From NCBI GenBank assembly GCA_002786785.1, contig PCUD01000068.1:1-54195 (forward strand): a stretch of DNA of 54,195 bases. Direction: 5' to 3'. The stretch's first letter is position 1; each line of letters starts with the position of its first letter. Made by a program: the position numbers and the translations under genes. This DNA is from Ignavibacteriales bacterium CG18_big_fil_WC_8_21_14_2_50_31_20. Its GTDB lineage: Bacteria; Bacteroidota; Ignavibacteria; Ignavibacteriales; Melioribacteraceae. Under the pieces are notes generated by a model. The model did no database searches, had not been told where the DNA came from, and saw only the letters and a list, made by a program, of their open reading frames with translations. This document shows, in pieces, positions 39,135-45,383 of the stretch.

Positions 39135-40214
39135 TTACATTTTTCTATAATAATTTGCAATATCTTCAACTGTCCATTTTTGTTTCCAATCCATACCAAT
39201 TGCATGGTTCCACATGTGTGTTAAATTATAAGCTATTTTGGACATTTCCATAATTTCATCTTCAGTCCAATCTTTAGCTAAGTTTTGTGGTAAGTCAATA
39301 TTATGTATTTCTAACATATTTCTGAATTCATCAACAGCCTCACCATAAAATTCTTTGAGATGATTAAATGCAATACAATTAGCAATTCCATGCCGGTAAC
39401 CTTTTACAACCGATAATCCATAAGAAAAAGCGTGACAAGCACCAACTTCGGAATATGTTAAACTTAATCCACCAAATAATGAAGCAATCATTAATTTTTC
39501 ATTATTCTCATCATTTTGTCCACGTCCTTCGTTAACAAAAACTTCACGACATAATTGTAAGGCTTGATCACCGTATGCTTTTGAGTATGCATTATAAAAT
39601 ATACCGCTTTCTGATTCGATACAATGAATATAGCAATCCATTCCTGTATAAAACCATTTATCTGTTGGAACACTTGCAATTAGCTCTGGATCAAGTATAA
39701 CTTGATTAAGAACAGTCCATTCGCATTTAAGCCCAAGTTTTTTTTCTGGACCAGTTAAAACGGCAGTCATAGAACATTCAGCACCGGTTCCAGAAATTGT
39801 TGGAACACCAAGATGATATATTCCAGGTTTTTTAATTAAATCTAAACCTTGATACAAAGTTGATGAACCTTCGTTTGTGAACATGAGCGCAGTAGCTTTT
39901 GCAATATCAAGAATACTTCCTCCTCCAATTCCAACAATACCGGATGGAAGTCCTTTTTTTTCCAAAATTGAATCTCTGAGATTATCAATTTGCTCTGTGT
40001 ATGGTTCTTTGATATCAACATCAATAAATATTAATAAATCTTCATCGCGGTTTGGAATTCTATTTGCTAATTCCTTTCCTTCAAAATATTTATCAACCAC
40101 AAAAACAAAAAACTTATCGTTTTCTTTTCTTATTGGTTCAATAATAGCATTTAATTGACTAAAGGCTCCTTTGCCATATACAATTTTATCTATATTTTTA
40201 AAATTTTTATGCAT
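39135..40214 (-). CDS. kdnB: KDO 8-oxidase (iron-type alcohol dehydrogenase), Kdo8N pathway
   Basis: 359 residues of the iron-containing alcohol dehydrogenase fold: IVGIGGGSILDIAKA binds NAD, GVPTISGTGAECSMTAV follows, and metal ligands are in MDCYIHCIES, CHAFSYGLS and YRHGIAN. Identification as KdnB, which oxidises C8 of 3-deoxy-D-manno-octulosonate to the aldehyde, rests on overall resemblance plus the neighbour kdnA two bases upstream and kdsB/kdsA across the divergent promoter. AGGA inside the end of kdnA serves as its ribosome site. Isolated, it would only be called iron-ADH. Confidence 0.87.
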   Translation of the reverse strand: MHKNFKNIDKIVYGKGAFSQLNAIIEPIRKENDKFFVFVVDKYFEGKELANRIPNRDEDLLIFIDVDIKEPYTEQIDNLRDSILEKKGLPSGIVGIGGGSILDIAKATALMFTNEGSSTLYQGLDLIKKPGIYHLGVPTISGTGAECSMTAVLTGPEKKLGLKCEWTVLNQVILDPELIASVPTDKWFYTGMDCYIHCIESESGIFYNAYSKAYGDQALQLCREVFVNEGRGQNDENNEKLMIASLFGGLSLTYSEVGACHAFSYGLSVVKGYRHGIANCIAFNHLKEFYGEAVDEFRNMLEIHNIDLPQNLAKDWTEDEIMEMSKIAYNLTHMWNHAIGMDWKQKWTVEDIANYYRKM

Positions 40215-40216
40215 TT

Positions 40217-41413
40217 TTATCCTATTACTTTTTTAATTGCGTTAACCATTTTATCACCCAAAATTTCAAGTTCTTCTTGATTCCATGTTGCTCTAATGCC
40301 TAAAGACACTAATCTGCTCATTACATCTTGCGATTTTGGTAATTGAAGATTTTTATAATCTTGAGGAGCACCAAAATAATGAACACCAAGTTTTGCTGGA
40401 AAGCTCAAATTCTTGATGTGATCCCATTGATTAATGAAGTGATATTGATTTTTGAACCAATAAGCTGCACCACTAATTCCAACAGCCGAAAATTGTTCAA
40501 TAACTTTTACCGCTAAATCAGCAGTGGGTAAAAAGAAATTTAAAGTGGCGGCAGAATCGCCTTCAATATCCACTTTTGCTCTAAATTCTAATTGTGGAAT
40601 TTCTTTTAATCTATTTTTCAAATAAACTTTATTTTTTTGATTATTAGCTTTTACTTCACCAATTTTTCTCATTTGAGCTAAACCAACAGCGGCACTTAAC
40701 TCACTGATTCTGTAATTAAATCCCATTATATGATGAGGTTCCATTCCTCTATTATTTCCCTCGTGAGTGTGACCGTGGTCTGCTACTTGATCAATTTTAT
40801 TATAAATATCCAAATCATTAGTAATAATTACTCCACCTTCTCCACAAGTTGTAATCTTAAAATAATCGAATGAAAATGAACCAACTTTCCCAAACAATCC
40901 TACTGATTTCCCTTGCCAAAAAGCACCCATTGCTTGTCCACAATCTTCAATTAAAATTAAATTATGCTTTGCGCATACTTCCATTATTCCATCAATATCT
41001 GCAGCGGTTCCAAGCATGTGAACTAACAAAACAGCTTTAGTTTTTGGAGTAAGTGCAGCTTCAATTCCTTCTGGACTTAAGCAAAGAGTTTCATCAATTT
41101 CTGCAAATATTGGTAACGCACCAGCTAAAAAAGCTGCTTCAATTGGAGCTACAAATGTAAATGGTGGAACAATAATTTCATCTCCAAGTCCAATGCCAGC
41201 GACAGCGAGAAGTGTTGCTACAGCTGTAGAACCACTAGAAACAGCGTGAGCATATTTTGCGCCAGTATAATTTGCAACTTCGGCTTCAAACTCTTTCGAT
41301 TTCCACATCCCCTTTCTAATTTCATCATGTCCATAACGAAATAAAGCTCCTGTATCTAAAACATCATTAACTTCTTTTCGCTCTTCTGTACCATAAACTT
41401 CCATTCCTGGCAT
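40217..41413 (-). CDS. kdnA: 8-amino-3,8-dideoxy-octulosonate aminotransferase
   Basis: 398 residues of the DegT/DnrJ/EryC1 sugar aminotransferase family. VSSGSTAVATLLAVAGIGLGDEIIVPPFTFVAPIEA, EDCGQAMGAFWQGKSVG and the PLP lysine in SFDYFKITTCGEGG are visible. With kdnB it converts KDO to 8-amino-KDO (Kdo8N) using glutamate as donor. The next gene, kdnB, begins two bases after its stop. GGAG lies before the ATG and forms part of an inverted repeat shared with the divergent operon. Confidence 0.9.
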   Translation of the reverse strand: MPGMEVYGTEERKEVNDVLDTGALFRYGHDEIRKGMWKSKEFEAEVANYTGAKYAHAVSSGSTAVATLLAVAGIGLGDEIIVPPFTFVAPIEAAFLAGALPIFAEIDETLCLSPEGIEAALTPKTKAVLLVHMLGTAADIDGIMEVCAKHNLILIEDCGQAMGAFWQGKSVGLFGKVGSFSFDYFKITTCGEGGVIITNDLDIYNKIDQVADHGHTHEGNNRGMEPHHIMGFNYRISELSAAVGLAQMRKIGEVKANNQKNKVYLKNRLKEIPQLEFRAKVDIEGDSAATLNFFLPTADLAVKVIEQFSAVGISGAAYWFKNQYHFINQWDHIKNLSFPAKLGVHYFGAPQDYKNLQLPKSQDVMSRLVSLGIRATWNQEELEILGDKMVNAIKKVIG

Positions 41414-41599: not shown

Positions 41600-42577
41600 A
41601 TGAGATACAGAAAACTCGGAAAAACAAACATAGAAGTATCAGAAATTAGTTTAGGATGCTGGACTATGGGTGGACTTAATTGGCAAGATGGTTCTTCCAT
41701 CGGTTGGGCAAATGTTAACGAATCTGAAATAAATAGAGCTATTAATTATGCTATAGACAATGGCGTAACCCATTTTGATAACGCTGATAATTATGGAAAT
41801 GGTCGTGCAGAGCGTATGCTTGCCCGAGTTCTTGGAGAGCGAACAAGCCAATTTATTATTTCATCAAAAGTTGGATGGTTTTCTGGAACTGCTGAAAATT
41901 CATATGAGCCAGCTCATATTCGTCATCAATGTGAACAATCTTTGATAAATCTTAAACGAGATTATATTGATATTTATTATTTCCATCATGGATATTTTGG
42001 AGATAATGACGAATATCTTGATGAAGCAGTTGCAACAATGAATCGTTTAAAAGAAGAAGGGAAAATTAGGCTGATTGGACAATCTGCATATTCAAATGAG
42101 GATTTTCAGAAACTCGTTCCAAAAGTAAAACCAGATGTACTTCAAAGTTCTGCCAATGCAATTGACGATCATTATCTCGCCGATGGAACTCCAGTGAGAA
42201 AACTACTTGAAAAAAATAATATTTCATTTATAGCTTTTTCGCCATTAGCACAAGGAATTTTGCTTGATAAATATAATAAGGACAATCCTCCTCAATTTGA
42301 ATCAGGTGATCACAGAAATAGAAATGAAAGATTTAAGCACGATTATCTTGCAAAAATTGAATGGCGTTTAAGTCAACTTAAAGAACGGTTTGGTAATTCA
42401 AAGGAAGATTTAGCTCGTGCAGCTTTGCAATATTTATTACATTATCAGGTTGTTGGTTCGGTAATTCCAGGATTTAGAAATTTGGAACAAGTAAAAATTA
42501 ATCTTTCGGCAACTGAGAACCCGCTTTCAGATGAGGATTTCAATTTTATTAAAGCACTATTTTCTGAACCAATTTAA
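41600..42577 (+). CDS. Aldo/keto reductase
   Basis: 325 residues, full-length NAD(P)H-dependent reductase. MRYRKLGKTNIEVSEISLGCWTMGG opens the barrel. The catalytic tetrad is visible as Asp in THFDNADNYG, the following Tyr, Lys in IISSKVGW, and His in YYFHHGYFG. It is the first gene of the plus-strand sugar operon, 85 bp before kdsB, but a role in KDO or Kdo8N synthesis is only contextual. GGAG lies before the ATG (TGGAGAATAT). The physiological substrate is unknown; a small hydroxyaldehyde is one option. Confidence 0.85.
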   Translation: MRYRKLGKTNIEVSEISLGCWTMGGLNWQDGSSIGWANVNESEINRAINYAIDNGVTHFDNADNYGNGRAERMLARVLGERTSQFIISSKVGWFSGTAENSYEPAHIRHQCEQSLINLKRDYIDIYYFHHGYFGDNDEYLDEAVATMNRLKEEGKIRLIGQSAYSNEDFQKLVPKVKPDVLQSSANAIDDHYLADGTPVRKLLEKNNISFIAFSPLAQGILLDKYNKDNPPQFESGDHRNRNERFKHDYLAKIEWRLSQLKERFGNSKEDLARAALQYLLHYQVVGSVIPGFRNLEQVKINLSATENPLSDEDFNFIKALFSEPI

Positions 42578-42662: not shown

Positions 42663-43415
42663 ATGAATTTTTTAGGAATAATTCCAGCTCGTTTCGGTTC
42701 CACAAGATTGGAAGGAAAACCCCTTGCAGATATTTGTGGAAAGCCAATGATACAGCACGTTTATGAACAAGCACAAAAAGCTATTGAAAATGTTTATATA
42801 GCTACTGATGATAAAAGGATAGAAGACGCAGTAAAATCATTTGGTGGAAATGTTGTAATGACTTCCGAAGAACACAATTCTGGCACTAATAGATGTCTTG
42901 AAGCGTACAATATTATTCAGCAAAATTCTAAAATTAAATTTGATGTTGTAGTAAATATTCAAGGTGATGAGCCAATGCTGGTGCCAGACCAAATTTTGGA
43001 ATTAGCTGCATGTTTTAACAATCCAAATACAGAAATTGCTACATTGATTGCTAAAATAACAAAAGCAGAAGATTTAGAAGATTTAACAAACGCATTTGTA
43101 ATTTTTGATAAAAATATGAAATCAATTTATTTTAGCCGCAGTGTAATTCCAGGTGTTAAAGATATTGAAAAATCAGAATGGCTTGGAAAAACGGATTTTT
43201 ATAAACATCTTGGAATGTATGGATACAGACCCAATACTTTAGAAAATATTGCTAAACTTCCTCAATCAAGACTTGAAATAGCAGAAGGTCTTGAACAAAA
43301 CAGATGGATTGAAAATGGTTACCCAATTCATGTTGCAATTTCAAAATATAATAATAGTATGTCCGTTGATACTAAAGCAGATTTGGAAAATATTAGAAAA
43401 ATAATGTGTAAATAG
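42663..43415 (+). CDS. kdsB: CMP-KDO (CMP-Kdo8N) synthetase
   Basis: 250 residues from the ATG at 42663; a longer TTG frame would begin inside a TATCTTTG promoter-like element and is rejected. IIPARFGSTRLEGKPLADICGKPMIQHVYEQA, VVMTSEEHNSGTNRCLEA, NIQGDEPM and GMYGYRPNTL are KdsB motifs. It activates the octulosonate with CTP for transfer to lipid A. Next to kdnA/kdnB it probably uses Kdo8N, as the Shewanella orthologue does; this is inferred from context. Confidence 0.93.
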   Translation: MNFLGIIPARFGSTRLEGKPLADICGKPMIQHVYEQAQKAIENVYIATDDKRIEDAVKSFGGNVVMTSEEHNSGTNRCLEAYNIIQQNSKIKFDVVVNIQGDEPMLVPDQILELAACFNNPNTEIATLIAKITKAEDLEDLTNAFVIFDKNMKSIYFSRSVIPGVKDIEKSEWLGKTDFYKHLGMYGYRPNTLENIAKLPQSRLEIAEGLEQNRWIENGYPIHVAISKYNNSMSVDTKADLENIRKIMCK

Positions 43416-43426
43416 GAAATGGAATT

Positions 43427-44260
43427 ATGAGCTTAAAAAGAGTTAATGTTGGAAATATAGAATGTGGAGCAGATCAATTATTTTTAATTTCTGGTCCATG
43501 CGTTATTGAAGACGAAAGTATAATGATGAAAGTTGCTGAAGAGCTAAAAGAAATTACTGAGCGATTAAATATCCCGTTAATTTATAAATCATCATTTCAA
43601 AAGGACAACAGAAGTTCGGTTGAATACTACAGTGGTCCTGGAATTGAAGAAGGATTAAGAATTCTTGAAAAAGTGAAAAAGGAATTTGGATTTCCATTAC
43701 TTACCGATATTCATTATCCTGACCAAATTAAACCAACTGCCGATGTTGTTGACGTAATTCAAATTCCAGCATATCTAGTTATGCAAACTCATCTTGTTGT
43801 AGAAGCTGCAAAAAGTGGAAGTGTTATTAATTTAAAACATGGACAATTTTTAGCTCCAGAAAATATGATTAAACCAGTTCAAAAAATTGAAGCATCTGGA
43901 AATAACAAAATAATACTTACCGAACGTGGATACACTTTTGGTTATAACGATTTGGTTGTTGATCCACGAAGCTTTTACCATTTAAATGAAACTGGCTATC
44001 CAGTTGTTTTTGATGTTACGCACGCAATAAGAAAATATGGAATTCCTAGTGCGGATCCATCGGGTGGCGCTCGTCAATATTTGCCAGTGCTTGGTAGAGC
44101 AGGTGTGGCTTCGGGAGTTGATGGAATTTTCATTGAAACTCATCCATGCCCAAGCGAAGCACTTTGTGATGCTGCAAGTCAATTAGATATTACTCAGTTG
44201 GAAGAATTCTTGAAGCCACTAATAGAATTGCACAATATAGAAGTTAAATACAGAAAGTAG
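43427..44260 (+). CDS. kdsA: KDO-8-phosphate synthase, metal-dependent type
   Basis: 277 residues. It condenses D-arabinose 5-phosphate with phosphoenolpyruvate. FLISGPCVIEDE carries Cys25 at the position that is Cys in metal-dependent enzymes (Aquifex) and Asn in E. coli, so this is the metallo class. KSSFQKDNRSS, NLKHGQFLAPENM, DVTHAIRKYG, SADPSGGARQYLPVLGRAG and the FIETHP metal site are conserved. It starts 11 nt after kdsB behind GGAA and precedes the transaldolase-CBS gene by 29 nt. Confidence 0.96.
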   Translation: MSLKRVNVGNIECGADQLFLISGPCVIEDESIMMKVAEELKEITERLNIPLIYKSSFQKDNRSSVEYYSGPGIEEGLRILEKVKKEFGFPLLTDIHYPDQIKPTADVVDVIQIPAYLVMQTHLVVEAAKSGSVINLKHGQFLAPENMIKPVQKIEASGNNKIILTERGYTFGYNDLVVDPRSFYHLNETGYPVVFDVTHAIRKYGIPSADPSGGARQYLPVLGRAGVASGVDGIFIETHPCPSEALCDAASQLDITQLEEFLKPLIELHNIEVKYRK

Positions 44261-44289: not shown

Positions 44290-45312
44290 ATGGAATTATA
44301 TTTAGACTCCGCCGATATGGAGGAAATTAAGGAAGCTTTTCAATTAGGTTTTCTTTCAGGATTAACAACTACCCCAACATTTATGCATCGTCATGGAATT
44401 ACTGATATTGATGCGACAATAATTGAACTTTCCAAAATTGTTCCCGTTTTACAAATTGAAGCTCTTGGAGACAGTGCAGAGCAAATAGTTACAGAAGTTT
44501 ATAGACAAGACGCACTCGGACTTGATAAAGAAACCACCGTTTATAAAATTCCAATTTCTCTTGAAGGTGTTAAGGCCTGCAAAATATTAACTGATAAAGG
44601 CTTTAAAGTAAACGTCCATCTTGTTTACACTTTGCAACAAGCATACATGGCAATGGCTGCCGGCGCTACTTATGTTTGTCCATTGGTTGGAAGACTGCAA
44701 GACCAAGGTCACGATGCTCTTTCGCTTGTTGAACAATGCGTTGATGCTGTTAATTATTATGGCTATAAATCTAAAATTATGTTCTCTTCAGTTAGAAACA
44801 TTGAGCATGTTAGAAATGCATTGAACATTGGAGCTCATACTATTACAGCACCTTGGAAAGTAATTCAACAAATGACTAAAAACAATTTAACCGATTTAGG
44901 CACACAACAATTTGTTGAGCATACTCGTTTAATGACTTACAAAATAAAAGATATTTTGGGAACTGATAATCCCACTGCTATTGTTGAAAATACAATTTCG
45001 GAATGCCTGCTTGAAATGACAGTCGGTAAATTTGGTGCAGTTACAATTGTTAACGAAAAAAAAGAAGCCATTGGAATTTTCACAGATGGTGACCTACGCC
45101 GTTTAATTGCTAGCAAAGGTGCTGATGCTGTTAATAAAAAAGTGATTGACACTTTAACTCTTGTTAAACCATTTACTATTGATGAAAATGAATTATTAAA
45201 TGATGCGAATAATATCTTTAAACAGAATCCAATAAATAGCATAGTTGTAACTAGAAAAAATCAAGTTATAGGAATGCTTCACATTCAAGATATTCTTGGG
45301 TTAGAGCGATAA
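44290..45312 (+). CDS. Transaldolase/F6P-aldolase domain fused to KdsD-type CBS pair
   Basis: 340 residues. Residues 1-215 are a transaldolase-family barrel beginning MELYLD as in fructose-6-phosphate aldolase. Asp6, the Schiff-base lysine K86 (VYKIP) and Arg135 are kept. E57 aligns with the transaldolase acid/base Glu. Asn28 of the TTNPS motif is Thr (TTTPT), FSA Thr109 is His110, and FSA Tyr131 is Leu132. Residues 220-340 are two CBS domains with GIFTDGDLRR and GMLHIQDIL, closely resembling the C-terminus of KdsD/KpsF arabinose-5-phosphate isomerase, whose SIS domain is absent. It is last in the operon after kdsA. Reaction unknown; supply or control of arabinose 5-phosphate is my hypothesis. 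Confidence 0.85.
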   Translation: MELYLDSADMEEIKEAFQLGFLSGLTTTPTFMHRHGITDIDATIIELSKIVPVLQIEALGDSAEQIVTEVYRQDALGLDKETTVYKIPISLEGVKACKILTDKGFKVNVHLVYTLQQAYMAMAAGATYVCPLVGRLQDQGHDALSLVEQCVDAVNYYGYKSKIMFSSVRNIEHVRNALNIGAHTITAPWKVIQQMTKNNLTDLGTQQFVEHTRLMTYKIKDILGTDNPTAIVENTISECLLEMTVGKFGAVTIVNEKKEAIGIFTDGDLRRLIASKGADAVNKKVIDTLTLVKPFTIDENELLNDANNIFKQNPINSIVVTRKNQVIGMLHIQDILGLER

Positions 45313-45356: not shown

Positions 45357-45383
45357 AAGACGTTCCGTTGGAACGTCTTTTTT
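45357..45383 (+). terminator. Terminator of the kds operon
   Basis: Stem AAGACGTTCC (45357-45366) with GGAACGTCTT (45370-45379), loop GTT, followed by T-rich sequence. Confidence 0.9.

Follow-up and report, generated by a model that had tools for sequence, protein, structure and literature searches.

A transaldolase-CBS fusion protein encoded beside a divergent KdsA as a candidate replacement for KdsD in Bacteroidota

Described systems and how the locus compares

D-Arabinose 5-phosphate, the sugar phosphate from which Kdo is built, is generally taught to be the product of a SIS-domain isomerase acting on ribulose 5-phosphate. The protein considered here is encoded in a 54,195-nucleotide stretch of DNA from an Ignavibacteriales bacterium, which is referred to throughout as the window. 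With the isomerases KdsD, KpsF and GutQ (EC 5.3.1.13) it shares a KdsD-type pair of CBS domains at the C-terminus and a place between kdsA and a KdsC-like gene, and it occurs where KdsD is absent. However, whereas these isomerases contain a catalytic SIS domain, the protein has an unrelated transaldolase barrel instead. Shewanella, the source of the described Kdo8N pathway, has the standard Kdo genes. Orthologues of the Shewanella enzymes KdnA (5k8b) and KdnB (5k8c) are both found in the window, but the accompanying Kdo branch has no KdsD and is equipped with a divergent, type II KdsA and the fusion.

Several enzymes of the transaldolase fold also bear comparison. The short transaldolases (3r8r, 1vpx from T. 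maritima and 3s0c from T. acidophilum) have the same fold as the fusion (TM 0.92) and the same residues at D6, E57, K86, N108, R135, S167 and R169, but the fusion departs from them at N28 (Thr), T110 (His), S130 (Cys) and F132 (Leu), and in its CBS pair. Fructose-6-phosphate aldolase, FsaA, is of the same superfamily, has the Schiff-base lysine and catalyzes a plausible reaction, the joining of glycolaldehyde and glyceraldehyde 3-phosphate to give arabinose 5-phosphate, which has been obtained in vitro as well as in E. coli strains engineered for it (PMC9947464). In contrast to the fusion it has no CBS domains, the two match at only 65 bits, and the fusion has Glu in place of its Gln59 and Leu in place of its Tyr131. 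By description, the fusion may further be likened to LmbR, the dedicated transaldolase that builds octulose 8-phosphate for lincomycin (PMC5854111), and to the sulfofructose transaldolase BmSF-TAL (8c4i), in each of which a transaldolase fold has been recruited to one pathway, be it of biosynthesis or of degradation; unlike the fusion, these two serve other pathways with other partners and have no CBS pair. No earlier description of a transaldolase-CBS fusion was found in the titles and abstracts of the openly accessible literature, a scope outside which most subscription papers lie.

The operon and the fusion protein

The fusion gene (44290..45312, plus strand) begins with ATG, encodes 340 amino acids and is the last gene of a plus-strand run in the order aldo/keto reductase, kdsB, kdsA, fusion. 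The run opens with the aldo/keto reductase (41600..42577; PF00248, 194 bits), which among the cassettes is confined to those of Melioribacteraceae, where it leads the operon. It is followed by kdsB, encoding CMP-Kdo synthetase (42663..43415; TIGR00466, 218 bits against a cut-off of 155), which is listed as an open reading frame from 42636 but is likely to start at MNFLGIIPARF, and then by kdsA of the type II clade (43427..44260, 277 amino acids; TIGR01362, 330 bits against a cut-off of 314). The initial annotation placed the fusion directly after kdsA, and indeed it starts 29 bp 3' of the kdsA stop, with no terminator-like site detected between the two genes in a consensus scan. The same scan alone places a terminator-like hairpin with a T tail at 45357..45379 on the plus strand, 45 bp past the fusion stop. 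Beside the operon, and divergent from it on the minus strand, lie the orthologues of kdnA, for the Kdo8N transaminase (40217..41413; 424 bits to 5k8b over nearly the full length), and kdnB, for the Kdo 8-oxidase (39135..40214; 410 bits to 5k8c over the full length). The adjacency of these two genes argues that the product of the operon is Kdo, which would later be converted to Kdo8N.

Within the protein, the barrel covers residues 1 to about 212 and the CBS pair residues 215 to 338, again approximately. The Pfam family TAL_FSA (PF00923) matches residues 3-248 at 118 bits against a cut-off of 27, and the C-terminal part contains two stretches of CBS sequence that reach 50 bits against a cut-off of 24. 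The best NCBIfam model for residues 215-331 is kpsF of the KdsD family (TIGR00393), at 71 bits against a cut-off of 204, with the match limited to positions 153-268 of 268, the CBS half of that model. As only these last 116 positions are matched, and no SIS catalytic domain was found in the comparison with the TIGR00393 profile, the fusion carries the regulatory half of KdsD without its SIS half. The closest solved structures to the CBS pair are the CBS domains of arabinose-5-phosphate isomerases (4o9k, 3k2v and 3fna), and on these matches the pair is assigned to the C-terminal pair of the KdsD type. The initial annotation had proposed just this combination of a transaldolase/FSA barrel with a KdsD-type CBS pair and a missing SIS domain; the profiles bear it out, and the residues it listed (D6, T28, E57, K86, H110, L132 and R135) and its motifs GIFTDGDLRR and GMLHIQDIL can all be read off as claimed.

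Judged by bit scores, the barrel is nearer to the short transaldolases than to the aldolase from E. coli, with 133 bits to the B. subtilis transaldolase 3r8r. An AlphaFold model (mean pLDDT 91.9) has the transaldolases 1vpx and 3s0c as its top PDB matches, each at TM 0.92, and the predicted-structure check that had been suggested thus returned a transaldolase fold. Profile score and barrel fold both place the protein in the transaldolase/FSA superfamily (PF00923), and the curated equivalog TIGR00875, named fructose-6-phosphate aldolase/TalC, gives 163 bits, below its cut-off of 246. An artefact of contig or reading frame was considered and ruled out, as homologues of equal length and 84-98% identity are found in other assemblies and full-length copies occur across GTDB species.

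The active site was compared by alignment of 81 fusion sequences. D6, T28, E57, K86, N108, H110, L132, R135, S167 and R169 are invariant in all 81, including the Schiff-base lysine K86 and the catalytic aspartate D6, and C130 is kept in 80. From the full transaldolase set (EC 2.2.1.2) of N28, E57, T110, S130 and F132, the fusion retains E57 alone, and the aldolase residues Gln59 and Tyr131 are likewise absent, with Glu57 and Leu132 invariant in their stead. The barrel is also held more tightly across the family than the CBS region, with a mean identity of 77% versus 50%, which together with the invariant substitutions points to a fixed, distinct specificity and not to decay. Lacking Asn28, Thr110, Ser130, Phe132, Gln59 and Tyr131, the barrel has a chemistry that cannot be read from any known member. 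In sequence terms, Glu57 leans to the transaldol mode, whereas the new His110 leans to neither the transaldol nor the aldol mode.

Distribution of the fusion and of KdsD

The assembly that contains the window is 99.4% complete in 182 contigs. A search of it with the SIS profile returned both domains of GlmS, MurQ, a regulator of the RpiR type and, where a contig ends, a fragment of GmhA, and no KdsD, an outcome that, according to the initial annotation, would favour replacement. WaaA is encoded, and its presence together with that of KdsA indicates that a Kdo-type sugar is made. A canonical transaldolase with N28, E57, K86, T110, S130, F132 and R135 is located elsewhere in the genome (C83:30343-30975). 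Two ordinary KdsC genes lie outside the kds operon (G000:C34:647-1105 and G000:C168:2997-3449), each beside a related neighbour gene. Ignavibacteria with KdsD have the order kdsA, kdsC, kdsD, lptC, lptA, lptB, where the lpt names are drawn from position and sequence resemblance; the site between ruvB and lptC that holds kdsA-kdsC-kdsD in relatives was sought, empty, in this genome and was not found.

Among 58 genomes, made up of this one and 57 relatives, the fusion is restricted to the genome itself, three congeners, one of them with a copy truncated where its contig stops, and one other member of the family, and nearly all the others have a KdsD-sized protein in its place. A wider scan of GTDB species confirmed 307 relatives, from which the best 80 loci were kept, including one truncated at the end of its contig. 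With identities of 60-98%, these best 80 of 307 show that the fusion is a real family and not a one-off; they come almost entirely from Bacteroidota and include cultured carriers, namely Flammeovirga pacifica, F. aprica, Thermonema rossianum, Thermoflexibacter ruber and Chryseolinea serpens.

The gene neighbourhood is conserved along with the protein. Within the best 80 of the 307, kdsA is directly upstream on the same strand at 54 loci, a KdsC-like HAD phosphatase is directly downstream at 57, and the complete series of kdsA, fusion and phosphatase is found at 46. The linkage to kdsA, which had been put forward as a test, therefore holds across genomes, and at 54 of those 80 loci it rules out chance adjacency. 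The phosphatase itself (L055, L075, L078 and 54 other loci) is a divergent protein of about 230-245 amino acids, whose best match is KdsC at 59 bits, below the cut-off. It is part of the Bacteroidota cassette and is absent beside the Melioribacteraceae copies. Matches to kdnA/kdnB are found at 15 of 84 cassette loci.

A search of 50 fusion genomes with the KpsF profile gave KdsD above the cut-off in five, a borderline match in one and none in 44, while KdsA is present in 48 of the 50 and WaaA in 29 of 30. The carriers without KdsD include the cultured Flammeovirga, Thermonema and Thermoflexibacter, and also a genome assembled into three contigs at 99% completeness (G419). When 393 genomes of at least 90% completeness were drawn evenly from the Bacteroidota, 283 of them had kdsA, 277 had KdsD and 273 had both. 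The fusion was present in six of the ten genomes with kdsA but not KdsD versus none of the 273 with both, and these six were all the carriers in the draw; the associated Fisher p of 3e-10 is inflated by the kinship of the taxa. The proposal that the fusion has replaced KdsD is thus supported by the absence of KdsD, the linkage to kdsA, a near-perfect mutual exclusion and the separate ordinary transaldolase. As far as can be judged from sequence, neither a kdsD elsewhere combined with ordinary transaldolase activity of the fusion nor a want of linkage to kds genes, either of which was to count against the proposal, was encountered.

Some genomes fall outside this pattern. The KdsD of G395 is probably cut at a contig end, being represented by a 127-amino-acid frame. 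Three Bacteroidota genomes (G173, G331 and G411) have kdsA and neither KdsD nor the fusion, reflecting either assembly gaps or a further source of arabinose 5-phosphate; the lack of KdsD may accordingly have other causes too, and by itself is no proof of replacement. Where both systems occur (L157, L154, L155 and L159), KdsD adjoins recQ and a gene resembling that for mannose-1-phosphate guanylyltransferase. The copy in G150 (L159) has a low score of 193 bits and is possibly decaying.

The partner synthase and the reaction of the fusion

What is new here is that, on alignment and tree, the KdsA proteins of fusion genomes form a separate clade, termed type II, whose arabinose-5-phosphate pocket carries invariant substitutions. 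A branch of 0.96 changes per site, supported at 100/100, separates the clade, and its members are 74% identical among themselves versus 45% to other KdsA. In the numbering of A. aeolicus the distinguishing changes are Ala47 to Asp, Phe103 to Tyr, Arg106 to Met, Lys125 to His, Gln188 to Arg, Pro190 to Tyr and Ser232 to Cys, which in the window KdsA are D60, Y116, M119, H138, R202, Y204 and C247. Each is found in 61 of 61 type II sequences, and the other type has its own state in 31-32 of 32, with one exceptional row at F103. Thus the KANRS motif with Arg106 and Phe103 is lacking, and KDNRS, Met119 and Tyr116 are present instead, throughout the 61. The metal ligands C25, H199, E237 and D248 are retained in the window KdsA, all four are kept in the clade, as are K124 and R154 of the PEP site, and the window protein accords with Kdo8P synthase both in the curated profile and in its Cys/His/Glu/Asp ligands.

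Arg106 of the neighbouring KdsA subunit binds the phosphate of arabinose 5-phosphate. Five A. aeolicus KdsA entries in the PDB have this residue changed to Gly. Phe103 corresponds by constant offset to Phe112 of N. meningitidis KdsA, a residue of the pocket for arabinose 5-phosphate (PMC6650799). Type II KdsA has gained two basic residues in the substrate-closing loop, R202 and K203, which from their position in the alignment could replace the phosphate contact of Arg106. Four genomes (G129, G139, G144 and G152) have KdsD and the fusion together and one KdsA of each type, whereas G132 and G150, the latter with the borderline KdsD, have KdsD beside the fusion yet a type II enzyme as their sole KdsA. 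The Melioribacteraceae copies nest inside those of Bacteroidota in the tree, and for this reason it is probable that transfer brought in the cassette, with kdsA and kdsD replaced together. The initial annotation missed that kdsA, like kdsD, had been exchanged, in its case for a member of a divergent clade whose sugar-phosphate pocket is altered. This strengthens the link to the pathway, yet it also keeps alive the second option of that annotation, an altered sugar phosphate.

On balance we favour, with moderate confidence, the fusion as a non-orthologous replacement of KdsD that feeds type II KdsA, most likely with D-arabinose 5-phosphate formed by C-C chemistry on a Schiff-base lysine. The barrel would form a Schiff base on Lys86 and hold the phosphorylated sugar by Arg135, Ser167 and Arg169. 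It might join glycolaldehyde to glyceraldehyde 3-phosphate in the manner of FsaA or, by stereochemical derivation, cut octulose 8-phosphate between C3 and C4 in the transaldolase style, with D-arabinose 5-phosphate as the product of either route. The adjacent KdsA would then join the sugar phosphate to phosphoenolpyruvate to yield Kdo and, in this organism, Kdo8N. By analogy with its KdsD ancestry only, the CBS pair may allow a pathway product or a nucleotide to regulate the fusion. Replacement is favoured by the lack of KdsD in 44 of 50 fusion genomes, isolates included, with KdsA kept in 48, by the contrast of six in ten with none in 273, and by the kdsA/KdsC-like linkage, the KdsD-like CBS pair and the co-occurrence with type II KdsA. 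The KdnA/KdnB orthologues at 15 of 84 loci point to Kdo as the product, and an enzyme of the FSA family provides an in vitro precedent for forming arabinose 5-phosphate from glycolaldehyde (PMC9947464). Against this reading, six of the 50 genomes keep KdsD, two of them with type II as the only KdsA; the substrate may differ in a KdsA that has Met, Tyr and Asp for R106, F103 and A47; and glycolaldehyde could be traced to no dedicated source.

This last difficulty would vanish were the barrel a true isomerase, converting ribulose 5-phosphate to arabinose 5-phosphate with no aldol step and so no need of glycolaldehyde or octulose phosphate. Lys86, Glu57 and His110 would then do the work that a Lys/His/Glu set does in triosephosphate isomerase, a comparison that is our own analogy. 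It would be the simplest metabolic swap for KdsD and would suit the invariance of His110 and Glu57 in 81 sequences and the retention of the phosphate-site residues, and we regard it as the main chemical rival. We nevertheless think it unlikely: the Schiff-base residues Lys86 and Asp6 are equally invariant, an enediol isomerase has no need of these in that form, and we know of no aldose-ketose isomerase of the transaldolase fold. A little less doubtful is the reading in which the fusion makes some sugar phosphate other than arabinose 5-phosphate, which type II KdsA condenses to a Kdo analogue in lipid A. The seven KdsA positions that separate the clades (save for the one row at F103), of which R106, F103 and A47 belong to the arabinose-5-phosphate site, speak for it, as do the co-inheritance of type II KdsA with the fusion and the four genomes with both pairs of KdsA and supplier. 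But KdnA and KdnB, whose orthologues occur in type II cassettes, act on Kdo, WaaA is present in nearly all the fusion genomes searched, the genome of the window has an ordinary KdsC, and R202 and K203 could stand in for R106. The fuller form of this idea, that the pair constitutes a second self-contained route through another sugar by C-C chemistry and that many Bacteroidota anchor their LPS through an undescribed Kdo isomer or analogue, is likewise improbable.

Two more conservative readings appear very improbable. If the fusion were an ordinary transaldolase with acquired CBS domains and an accidental place beside kdsA, its overall fold and catalytic lysine would be explained, but not the linkage, the complementarity with KdsD or the co-inheritance with a KdsA clade; this reading was rejected because the canonical enzyme is encoded elsewhere in the genome and the four replaced active-site residues of the fusion are fixed in a different state. 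Nor is it any more credible that KdsD was simply missed, through an assembly gap or as another SIS protein, with the fusion regulating or tuning the pathway. The 182 contigs and the existence of GmhA- and RpiR-type SIS proteins lend this some plausibility, but the absence recurs in 44 of 50 fusion genomes, isolates among them, and in the near-closed G419, while 273 of the 283 kdsA-containing genomes of the phylum do reveal their KdsD; it was set aside on the SIS search of the genome and the KpsF search of the fusion genomes.

If the favoured explanation is true, a transaldolase-fold replacement with its own KdsA clade would provide a second start to Kdo synthesis across many Bacteroidota. It would explain those genomes that seemingly do without an essential step of lipopolysaccharide synthesis, and would give a better annotation to a family that can now be recognised only as a transaldolase or a CBS-domain protein. 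As fusion and KdsA change jointly, nature has also set up a clean comparison by which channelling, or a change of intermediate, could be tested.
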